Under the pieces are notes generated by a model that saw only the letters and a program-made list of their open reading frames with translations, was not told where the DNA came from and searched no databases. A stretch of 21,095 nucleotides of DNA from IMG/VR virus record IMGVR_UViG_3300032006_000113, positions 1-21,095 of that record, one strand, 5' to 3'. Shown piece by piece: positions 15,657 through 19,825 of the stretch. This DNA is from a virus. Both the position numbers and the translations under genes were made by a program. Numbering within the stretch: the first letter of the stretch is position 1; each line of letters starts with the position of its first letter.

Positions 15657-15686
15657 ATTATAACAATATTTGAGGTACTTTGTCAA
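15657..15686 (-). promoter_or_regulatory. sigma-70 promoter
   Basis: TTGACA at 15686-15681, an 18-bp spacer and TATAAT at 15662-15657 on the minus strand, preceded by TTTATTTC. It starts just after the terminator at 15692-15715 and drives the genes from 15613 down to about 13690. Confidence 0.82.
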
Positions 15687-15691
15687 GAAAT

Positions 15692-15715
15692 AAAAAAGGG
15701 CTGCCTAAGCAACCC
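15692..15715 (-). terminator. intrinsic terminator downstream of the ncRNA region
   Basis: The minus strand has a 7-bp stem (GGGTTGC with GCAGCCC; the single G-U pair works only on this strand) with loop TTAG, followed by TTTTTTA. It ends the unit containing the small gene 15743-15916 and the long non-coding region. Confidence 0.88.
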
Positions 15716-15742
15716 TTCCTTAAAGTTTGTGTTATTTTTCTA

Positions 15743-15916
15743 CTATTCAGATACTTGAAGAATGTCCAGTGAACCTTCGTCCATCCCAAGTCGGCGACGT
15801 CGCGCCTCTATCATGTCATTGAGTCGCTCTTCTAAGAGTTTCTCATTCCCTGCTTTCAGCTTCAACTGGCTCACTCGCTCGTATGTCTCTAAGATTTCCA
15901 CTGTGTATTCTCGCAT
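15743..15916 (-). CDS. 57-aa coiled-coil protein
   Basis: ATG at 15914-15916 with AAAGGAG 6 bases upstream; ends 28 bases before a strong terminator. The product (MREYTVEILETYERVSQLKL, then EKLLEERLNDMIEARRRRLG) is a charged helix with heptad spacing. Unrecognised. It lies directly downstream of the 1-kb non-coding region, whose last hairpin ends 20 bases before the ATG, so it is likely co-transcribed with it. Confidence 0.75.
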   Translation of the reverse strand: MREYTVEILETYERVSQLKLKAGNEKLLEERLNDMIEARRRRLGMDEGSLDILQVSE

Positions 15917-15936: not shown

Positions 15937-16954
15937 CACCTCCGACCCGAAAGCCGGAGGTGCATTACCCATCTAACTAGTTGGCAGCAAGCCCCACCAT
16001 ACTCACTGAATGACTCCCCCAGTACGTCATGCTGATAAGACACGATTTCCTTTATGACAGCCTCCCGACTCTAATCGATTTTTTCGTGCATCCAACAGGA
16101 GCGGCACAGAGGATATATCGCATATTAAAGACATATAACCTACCTAGGTACATTGCCACTACTCAGTTATCCGCTGATATGTAGATTTTACAATGCTAGG
16201 ATTTTACTCCATGTGTTCGTCGTGTGGCAACTGAATGCCCTTTGTATCGTTCCAATGCAGGGTACCGTTTCCTGCGACCTCTTTTGTTCGAACTGTAATC
16301 CCAGTAAGGTCAGGTACTGATTAACGTAGTCAGCCGTACCATTCACGAGTAGTTATTGTACTACTAAACATCGAAGGTAAGGACTCCCCACCGCTAAGTG
16401 GGTCGGATTGCCTGTTTTAAGCTGCGGCTCCCTAACGGATCAGGGCTTATACTCTCAACGCCTTCGTCGGTCTACTACTTCTTTTGGGCTTAGCCAAGGG
16501 CGAGTAGACTCCTTCATTTTTCGATATGGCCCGCCATGCCGAGGTGATTAGCAGGTGTTTTCTCCACTGCTCCTAGGAAGGAGTGCGAGTGTTACTACCC
16601 ACTACAATTTTCCATCGATTATGCAGTTGTTATCTTTCCTCTATCTGCACCATACCTATAATATAGCTGGGACTTAGAGTTCTTTGTCATGCCCATGAAC
16701 CTCGGCTTTTTCATTCTAGGATGAATGCGCGACACTATGTCTAACGTGCAGCTGACCTTAGTTACTATACTAATTCTAGCGTGAGGCTGGGGTTAGGCAC
16801 TTTTATCTTCTCCCCGATCTTTATTGACATATGCGAGTATATATTCCCGCGCCCGATCTTCCTCACTTAAAAAGAATGTCTGTCCATAGGAATTTATACC
16901 AATTTTCGTCCAAACACTCTTTTTAAGTGAAGCCCTCTATATCCCCGAGGGCTT
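15937..16954 (-). ncRNA. candidate large structured non-coding RNA (about 1 kb)
   Basis: About 1 kb with no credible gene in a window that is otherwise almost fully coding. The minus strand forms many local helices. At the 5' edge an 8-bp hairpin (16930-16937 with 16947-16954) abuts a 13-bp perfect stem, extended to 17 with one G-U (16859-16930 region; TCACTTAAAAAGA at 16863-16875 with its complement at 16918-16930). Further stems: 16565-16591, 16470-16509 (7 bp plus an inner 7-bp hairpin), 16387-16402, 16348-16365, 16313-16340, 16257-16275, 16158-16183, and an 8-bp hairpin at 15937-15962 at the 3' edge. Size and context (phage, minus strand, between two genes) recall the GOLLD and ROOL classes of large ornate phage RNAs, but I cannot confirm membership. 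No separate promoter is visible, so it may be cut from the transcript starting at 17385. It ends before a terminator at 15692. Confidence 0.6.
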
Positions 16955-16965
16955 GGGTTGCAACT

Positions 16966-17298
16966 CTACGAAGTAGCTTTTACAATCGCATCTTCTAGCA
17001 TGAGAAGGTCTAGCTTTGATGCTTTAACAAGAGATGGAGCTTCCAACTCTACACCTAATTGACCTGCAATCCTCGCAACGATCTCTGACTTGCGAACGAT
17101 TGGATTGCCTGACTTAGTGGTCTTAGGCTGTGCTACATAAACACCTTCGCGTGATAACTTCGCAATGATGCTTCGTGCGGTCTTGCCGAACTCGTCTGCT
17201 AGTGCGTCAACAGTTGCTCGAGTCGGAGTTGCTGTGTACTGATCGATCATAGTAGCTACCATTTCGTCAGTGTAATTCTTAACTTGTGCTTCGGCCAT
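16966..17298 (-). CDS. small HTH-like protein of the paralogous family
   Basis: 110 residues with the two-part family layout. N-terminal module: YTDEMVATMIDQYTATPTRA then ALADEFGKTARSIIAKLSRE and GVY. C-terminal part: KSGNPIVRKSEIVARIAGQL, then PSLVKASKLDLLMLEDAIV. It is the closest paralogue of 14189-14494 in this window by eye. ATG at 17296-17298 with GGGAG upstream; the longer frame crosses the promoter at 17357-17385. It is the first gene of the unit leading into the candidate large RNA. DNA binding is inferred. Confidence 0.82.
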   Translation of the reverse strand: MAEAQVKNYTDEMVATMIDQYTATPTRATVDALADEFGKTARSIIAKLSREGVYVAQPKTTKSGNPIVRKSEIVARIAGQLGVELEAPSLVKASKLDLLMLEDAIVKATS

Positions 17299-17356: not shown

Positions 17357-17385
17357 ATTATTTCAAAATTTAAGGAAGTTGTCAA
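17357..17385 (-). promoter_or_regulatory. sigma-70 promoter upstream of the HTH-like gene and ncRNA region
   Basis: TTGACA at 17385-17380, a 17-bp spacer and AATAAT at 17362-17357, preceded by AAATAAATC on the minus strand. The -10 is one base off consensus. Confidence 0.72.
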
Positions 17386-18467: not shown

Positions 18468-19100
18468 TCAAGCCGCGCCGCCGAGCACCGTGTTGAGCCT
18501 TGTTAGTAGCTCGAGCCTACCGTTGGCTTTGTTGTTAAAATCGACAGTCTCCCAACCGCCGCGAGAAATCACGCGCTCTTTAAGCAGAGTCATCTCGTCA
18601 TAGTATGAAAGCGCGCGCTCATCATTAGGCGATAGCTTCCAATATTTCAGAGGCGAGATTCTGCGCTCTTCGATTCGTCGCGCTTGCTCATCTTCAGAAA
18701 TCGAAAGCCAGAATTTAATGAAGCGCACATTTTTATTTGCCTCCCATTCCTCGATTGAATTCATAAAATTAAAGTATTGAAGATCGGAGCACCAGCCGTT
18801 GATTTTCTGAACCAAAGCGCGAGAATACCAAGAGCGATCATAAAACACGAGTCCGCTTTCTGGCAGTTTCTTAGCCCAGAAACCGAGCCAATTTTCCATT
18901 GTGGATTTGCTAGGCTTAGTCGATAGAACAACCGAAAAAAGCCGAGGCGGTAGGTATTGAGTTAATGCGCGAATAGTGCCAGATTTGCCAGCCGTGTCGC
19001 GCCCCTCGAGAACAACCGCGACAGGGCCGGTCAGCCCTTCCGCGATTTCGTTTAGTCGAGCTTGTTGTTGCTCGAGTTTGTTTAGCTGAATATCAACCAT
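18468..19100 (-). CDS. ppk2: polyphosphate kinase 2 family protein
   Basis: A 210-residue P-loop kinase of the PPK2 family. Walker A is GRDTAGKS at 33-40 within VVLEGRDTAGKSGTIRAL; the lid region starts PPRLFSVVLSTKPS; the second motif is FYDRSWYSRALV; then EEWEANKNVRFIKFWLSISE, RRISPLKYWKLSPND and SYYDEMTLL follow the family order. PPK2 enzymes transfer phosphate between polyphosphate and NDPs or NMPs. It is shorter than most one-domain members (about 230-300), mainly at the N terminus. ATG at 19098-19100 with AGGAGG upstream; a longer frame to 19346 lacks such a site and crosses other genes. A phage copy would let infection draw on host polyphosphate; this is inference. Confidence 0.9.
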   Translation of the reverse strand: MVDIQLNKLEQQQARLNEIAEGLTGPVAVVLEGRDTAGKSGTIRALTQYLPPRLFSVVLSTKPSKSTMENWLGFWAKKLPESGLVFYDRSWYSRALVQKINGWCSDLQYFNFMNSIEEWEANKNVRFIKFWLSISEDEQARRIEERRISPLKYWKLSPNDERALSYYDEMTLLKERVISRGGWETVDFNNKANGRLELLTRLNTVLGGAA

Positions 19101-19183
19101 AGTATGCCTCCTAAGATTAGTAGATCCGCGCTGACCGAATAGATCAGGTAGATTGTTAGTAGAATTTTGCGAAGTTTTTTCAT
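19082..19183 (-). CDS. 33-aa membrane micro-protein overlapping ppk2
   Basis: ATG at 19181-19183 with GGAG about 8 bases upstream. The product is basic at the N terminus (MKKLRK) and then almost wholly hydrophobic (ILLTIYLIYSVSADLLILGG then ILWLIFS), one or two spans. Its stop lies 17 bases inside ppk2, and its body holds the ppk2 ribosome-binding site. Unrecognised; support comes from the start signal and the clean span. Confidence 0.55.
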   Translation of the reverse strand: MKKLRKILLTIYLIYSVSADLLILGGILWLIFS

Positions 19184-19228
19184 TGTCAGTCTCCAAATTG
19201 TAGGCACATTTTACCATATCTAAAATCA

Positions 19229-19825
19229 TTAAGCAACCCCACCCTCTAGTCCGATTTGTGGAGCGAATTCTGGTACACCATGCTCCTCGCGCTGTCGCTT
19301 GCCTTGCATAATCTCGCGCCCTATCTCTAGGTTTCGCTTTCTCCATGAATTCGCAAACCGTCCCAGAATAGTGCGCTCTTTAACAGCATAAAATTCTGTC
19401 TTGCCTCCGAATCTCATCCAGCGTCTATGCATAGTCGGGCTGAGTTTGTTCATAACCTTGTCACCGTCATTATGAAAATGAACAAATTGCTCCGCGCTCA
19501 TTGTCACGTCCCAATCATCTCGCTTCATATATACAACCCTCGCCCGAAGTGAGAGAACATCTAAATCAAACGCTCGCTCAATATCTCGCAACGTGCCTAT
19601 GATTCGAGATTGGCCGCCATGATAGAAGCCAGTGCTAGATTTTCTATTCTTATATGCCGCCCTCGCAAATCCATCCTTATACATCCCCTCGAAATCTCGG
19701 AATTGAGAATAGTGAGATTCTAAGTCTAGTAATTGCCAGAGATAGTTATAAGAGTCGCGCCCCTCATAGTCGGTAGGGCTAACTTCTTCCGGTGTGGATT
19801 TGCTTGTTAGTATGTAATTTTCCAT
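19229..19825 (-). CDS. hypothetical protein, 198 aa
   Basis: A basic, soluble protein, unrecognised. Visible elements: an N-terminal part with GRDSYNYLWQLLDLESHYSQ, a centre with AFDLDVLSLRARVVYMKRDD and HFHNDGDKVMNKLSPTMHRR, and a C-terminal basic helix with RFANSWRKRNLEIGREIMQG. The HFHNDGD stretch (His, Asp) could bind metal, but I cannot assign a family. Its ATG shares a base with the TAA of the HAD gene (TAATG), so the two are translated together; a functional link is possible. Confidence 0.75.
   Translation of the reverse strand: MENYILTSKSTPEEVSPTDYEGRDSYNYLWQLLDLESHYSQFRDFEGMYKDGFARAAYKNRKSSTGFYHGGQSRIIGTLRDIERAFDLDVLSLRARVVYMKRDDWDVTMSAEQFVHFHNDGDKVMNKLSPTMHRRWMRFGGKTEFYAVKERTILGRFANSWRKRNLEIGREIMQGKRQREEHGVPEFAPQIGLEGGVA

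Follow-up and report, generated by a model that had tools for sequence, protein, structure and literature searches.

What does a T5-like phage carry in about 1 kb of DNA that appears to hold no gene? The question was raised by a virus record of 21,095 bases, analysed over its whole length (hereafter the window). The window harbored T5-like genes, including a DnaB-like helicase, a D5-like regulator and a split NAD ligase, in the gene order of the cultured T5-like vibriophage VCPH; no close DNA relatives were found among cultured phages. Genes around the stretch in question were oriented on the minus strand. On its upstream side lay the small D5-like helix-turn-helix (HTH) gene (16966..17298, minus strand), which matched phrog_323 and phrog_1725 and had relatives in 79 loci; it encodes 110 aa counted from the first ATG, while the open reading frame (ORF) call reached further, to a TTG at 17385. 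On its downstream side lay a conserved 57-aa gene (15743..15916, minus strand), preceded by a ribosome-binding site and noted in the window and its relative L002 only. No credible ORF was found on either strand between the stop of the D5-like gene (16966) and the ATG of the 57-aa gene (15916), which bears out the gene desert of about 1 kb described in an earlier, sequence-only reading of this DNA. Elsewhere in the window, the phage gene at 18468-19346 on the minus strand carried a polyphosphate kinase 2 (PPK2) domain (E 2e-41).

We consider it likely that the region (15937..16954, minus strand, running approximately from 16954 to 15937) encodes a structured non-coding RNA of about 1 kb, from a class outside Rfam that holds a fixed slot across a large uncultured clade of T5-like phages. 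Folding of the window sequence by itself was unremarkable (z -1.6, with equal folding in 2 of 20 shuffles), so the case for a structured RNA rests on comparison. The sole close relative found was L002, located on a 38-kb IMG/VR contig, whose D5-like protein was 82% identical and whose DNA was about 80% identical over the region. The whole RNA block was retained in L002, where 18 of 21 gap runs had lengths that were not multiples of 3; the 57-aa gene had no gaps, and its substitutions were distributed 7/5/22 by codon position. The consensus fold of the two sequences reached a z-score of -7.7 against column-shuffled alignments, a value that depends on one pairwise alignment since the window type has two members only. 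The alignment contained 25 compensatory pairs (10.7±2.7 in shuffles, with a maximum of 16 in 60 shuffles), while two flanking coding stretches used as controls were at chance (z -0.7 and -0.05). On the opposite strand, folding energy was weaker (z -3.7) and compensatory pairs were equally high (25 vs 11.9±3.5). Searches for further members of the window type by conserved DNA words and by a 129-aa neighbour returned L002 alone; two other loci, L081 and L082, were rejected as apparent chance matches, their similarity being confined to the shared word.

Several hairpins noticed in the sequence-only reading were recovered and could be followed in L002. The perfect 13-bp inverted repeat (16863-16875 with 16918-16930) was present and formed the core of a longer 5' hairpin (16863..16930, minus strand) with 20-nt arms that were 90% complementary (16863-16882/16911-16930); both arms were altered in L002 with pairing kept. 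The 8-bp hairpins at both edges were also found. At the 5' edge (16930..16954, minus strand; arms 16930-16937/16947-16954), directly after the D5-like stop, both arms were unaltered in L002, and the GC-rich hairpin at the 3' edge (15937..15962, minus strand; arms 15937-15944/15955-15962), just ahead of the 57-aa gene, was retained. Local inverted repeats do exist in the region as had been described, but their abundance did not hold, as only four pairs reached 8 bp or more within a distance of 120 nt. A 9-bp complement (16305-16313/16752-16760) put forward as closing a domain was rejected: the pairing was broken in L002, where TAAGGTCAG became CTTGGTGAG and the partner was unaltered, so it is probably a chance match, as had already been suspected. 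Conservation of the RNA was highest in a block of 107 nt (16270..16376, minus strand), identical between the window and L002.

Beyond L002, related loci were collected from the D5-like protein search (79 loci), with more obtained from two further scans. An RNA unit was present in 71 of the 92 distinct downstream regions examined (window and L002 included), measuring 0.6-1.4 kb; in each of these 71 distinct viral loci, the same small D5-like HTH gene was its immediate upstream neighbour. All but two of the units (69/71) were flanked by a TTGACA/TATAAT promoter on one side and by the next promoter on the other, the remaining two being the window and L002, and in most members the unit ended at a terminator or at the next promoter. 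An own consensus sigma-70 promoter ahead of the RNA, as found in these 69 relatives, is usual in the class and is not regarded as essential. Strong fold conservation was displayed by five alignable clusters, A1, A3, B1, A2 and A5 (z -9.2, -8.0, -11.3, -12.7 and -6.8, respectively). Units were heavily enriched in cUUCGg tetraloops (74 vs 5.9 expected) and in AGUA (938 vs 573 expected), a sequence that occurs in loop-E motifs. The large structured phage RNA anticipated in the sequence-only reading is supported by a conserved fold, compensatory changes, non-coding indels and synteny of the RNA unit across about 70 related viruses, and the presence of a structured RNA in the window region is very likely.

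A tRNA-Glu or a tRNA-like element adjoined the RNA in 13 of 69 relatives, and neither was found at the window or L002. The tRNA-like element of L003 (1397-1463) was located downstream of the D5-like gene and ahead of the RNA promoter, and a similar one was observed in L006, L010, L020, L027, L048, L119, L122 and L123. It had a covarying 7-bp acceptor stem, a conserved D-arm GTGTCTACGGAAGCAC, a T-arm with a TTCGA loop and a short or odd anticodon arm; ARAGORN made no call in the loci scanned. A normal tRNA-Glu (TTC) occupied the same small gap ahead of the RNA in L115 (577-651), L122 (2216-2290) and L123 (471-545). One further locus, L224, carried the RNA core and D5-like gene on a 4.4-kb contig that had been assigned to a Flavobacteriaceae MAG, which possibly points to the host or to misbinning of a phage contig.

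Most RNA units were joined by a covariance model of a pseudoknotted core of about 107 nt. The core comprised an interlocking helix pair and, after it, a hairpin with a loop that pairs back to the base immediately ahead of GUGAUUG; it was defined as a helix, NGUGAUUG and a hairpin with a C-N'-xx-AA loop making the pseudoknot. The first covariance model was built from 17 core sequences, and a covariance search of 68 sources at E<=1 gave 43 matches, all on the sense strand. Across the core alignment of 38 loci, both-side changes were found in 22 of 25 pairs, and 85% of cells were paired, dropping to 27-42% after sliding by 1-3 columns. The loop pseudoknot pair (107-135) was C-G in 24 loci, G-C in 11 and A-U in 3, and was broken in none of the 38. 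A CC-UUCG-GG hairpin initially included in the core model gave way to a better supported helix (6-9/37-41). A DNA core pattern that ignored gene neighbours was also run over 2.9 million viral contigs; the D5-like gene was upstream in all of the 21 loci obtained (21/21), a set that samples the better conserved members, as the pattern is strict, and that includes several contigs already known as loci. The core was not found in T5, two vibrio T5-like phages, ICP1 or phage K. Comparative sequence analysis thus established conserved structure, non-coding character, synteny and a core common to most members.

Whether the window RNA shares this core was less straightforward. Like the other units, the window and L002 carried the RNA directly downstream of the D5-like HTH gene and on the same strand, and the size, non-coding character and conserved structure of the window RNA all matched the class definition (0.6-1.4 kb). 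BLAST and sequence-word comparison of the window with the A and B types displayed no similarity, so covariance models were used. A candidate divergent copy of the core was located at 16313..16365 (minus strand), inside the 107-nt block identical in L002, by a match to covariance model R1 and by a motif rule derived from the A and B types. It encompassed a first hairpin AGUAGU/ACUACU with a 6-bp helix (16360-16365/16348-16353), CGUGAAUG at 16340-16347, and a second hairpin CUGA-CUACGUUAA-UCAG (16317-16333) with outer GGUA/UACC, whose loop CG is able to pair with an upstream CG (predicted pseudoknot). The best place for model R1 in the RNA region was 16292-16381, with 10 bits and an E-value of 0.05 in 1.1 kb. 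With model R2 over the whole window, the core place came third with a non-significant E-value of 1.4, behind two better-scoring chance places, and L002 behaved in the same way under the covariance model, without significance. Within the window RNA the motif rule matched a single place; among 3000 shuffles it matched 17, or 7 when a 5-bp first helix (H1) was imposed, so that the chance of the window core was 0.2-0.6% under a rule that had been loosened slightly with the window match in view. The rule matched 3 places in 837 kb of non-RNA sequence and recovered 40 of 71 units. Because the putative core lies inside the L002-identical block and the gene neighbour is identical, membership of the window RNA in the class of the A- and B-type RNAs is likely, though less certain than the RNA itself.

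Promoter arrangement differed between the window type and its relatives. The D5-like gene of the window was preceded by a consensus sigma-70 promoter (17357..17385, minus strand; TTGACA-17-AATAAT, 11/12), possibly the start of a transcript that holds the RNA. No consensus -35/-10 pair was found ahead of the RNA in the window or L002. An extended -10-like site, TGGTATAAA (TGGTATAAT in L002), was present in the loop of the long hairpin (16893..16901, minus strand); promoter scans found no -35 partner for it in either sequence, and it is a possible, putative weak promoter of the RNA. The minus-strand terminator named in the sequence-only reading was present at 15722-15691, where an intrinsic terminator (15691..15722; 14-pair stem and T tail, conserved in L002) closes the unit, followed by the promoter of the next unit, a perfect sigma-70 match (15657..15686, minus strand; TTGACA-18-TATAAT, 12/12). 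Since the window type lacks a strong promoter, its RNA probably comes from the D5-like transcript or from the weak extended -10 site. Processing from a transcript beginning at 17385, as had been proposed, is therefore plausible for the window and L002, but is not the general rule, because the RNAs of 69 relatives start at their own strong promoter.

Large RNAs of comparable setting are known in phages. GOLLD RNAs are large (often >800 nt), ornate and phage-borne, lie near tRNAs and have conserved and variable parts, ROOL RNAs are large and phage-borne with multiple pseudoknots and lie near tRNA islands, and both build RNA-only cages (PMC12286853). Vibriophage ICP1 produces an abundant unclassified lncRNA of about 800 nt from an ORF-less space of about 1 kb (PMC7567579), and staphylococcal phage K encodes the long RNAs lnc001 and lnc002 in gene-free stretches near tRNAs, lnc001 having its own early promoter (PMC9241854). 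The RNA described here resembles the ICP1 lncRNA in its origin from an ORF-less stretch of about 1 kb, and the phage K RNAs in its gene-free stretch and, for lnc001, in the own promoter of most members; comparison of the core alone gave best E-values of 0.9 and 0.95, respectively, not above chance. No description of the class was found in the literature searched, which consisted mainly of open-access papers.

Two possibilities had been offered in the sequence-only reading, a divergent member of GOLLD or ROOL and a new class. A member that drifted beyond recognition would fit the size range, the phage setting and the tRNA-Glu or tRNA-like element beside the RNA in some relatives, GOLLD and ROOL being large, ornate, located near tRNAs and of unknown function (PMC12286853). 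Rfam 15 gave no match in the window and relatives besides tRNAs and sub-threshold noise, including miRNA-like and L20-leader hits (E 0.2-8) that fell mostly on the long hairpin and were all far below gathering scores. The specific search at E<=10 over the window and 19 related records was likewise negative for the ROOL model (RF03087, gathering score 99.1 bits), and returned one 15-nt fragment of 5.8 bits only for the GOLLD model (RF02032, gathering score 150 bits); a positive control, run for the ROOL model only, detected the known ROOL of an L. salivarius plasmid (NC_007930) at 1e-29. Unlike GOLLD, the RNA here is linked with a D5-like HTH gene of T5-like phages and has a core in which GUGAUUG is combined with a hairpin-loop pseudoknot. 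As neither model matches, a new class is favoured, and a divergent member of GOLLD or ROOL appears very unlikely. A role for DNA itself, as an origin, packaging site or recombination site, is suggested by the long inverted repeat at 16863-16930 and the adjoining gene for a DNA-binding protein, but folding is stronger on the sense strand than on its complement (z -7.7 vs -3.7), members keep one orientation between promoter and terminator, and UUCG tetraloops, loop-E-like AGUA and the loop pseudoknot are RNA signatures; we regard this role as extremely improbable.

In the window and L002, the RNA region is not set apart from the D5-like gene by a consensus promoter and leads into the 57-aa gene with its ribosome-binding site; this would also suit a cis-regulatory leader or 3' UTR controlling one of these two genes rather than a trans-acting RNA. 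Such control is improbable given that 69 relatives have an own promoter and then another promoter, with no gene in the same transcript, and that about 1 kb with many covarying helices far exceeds known leaders. A further alternative is a replacement in this slot, by which the RNA of the window and L002 would be structured without being homologous to the A and B types. The absence of BLAST similarity and a covariance match that is not significant over the whole window point that way, whereas the same gene neighbour, the same slot, a similar size and a core motif on the right strand, in the right order and within the most conserved block argue for homology, so that replacement is rather unlikely.

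The D5-linked RNA is thus probably a large phage RNA acting in trans. Two features of the window count against this main reading, namely that its RNA has no strong promoter of the kind seen in relatives and that a protein gene, seemingly absent in relatives, comes after it. In most members it would form its own transcription unit under a strong host-type promoter, and the consensus promoters suggest early synthesis by the host polymerase. In the window and L002 it more likely rides the D5-like transcript from the promoter at 17385 and would be released near the long 5' hairpin, or alternatively would start at the weak extended -10 site within that hairpin. The product may be a stable, abundant RNA acting during infection, working as an RNA-only scaffold or oligomer by analogy with GOLLD and ROOL, or alternatively as a ribonucleoprotein with a protein of the phage, for example the HTH protein encoded next to it. 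The full reading, by which these giant ornate RNAs form a new class with no relation to GOLLD or ROOL, are fixed in a T5-like clade, are tightly linked to the D5-like gene and work during infection as an abundant RNA-only assembly or as a ribonucleoprotein with the HTH protein, is in our view about evenly balanced; the strict linkage may also reflect nothing more than shared ancestry of the locus. Few large ornate RNAs are known, and another class, with some 70 diverse members and a core supported by covariation, would add a fresh case for asking whether RNA assemblies are a general phage strategy, with a single constant protein neighbour as a testable handle on the function of the RNA.
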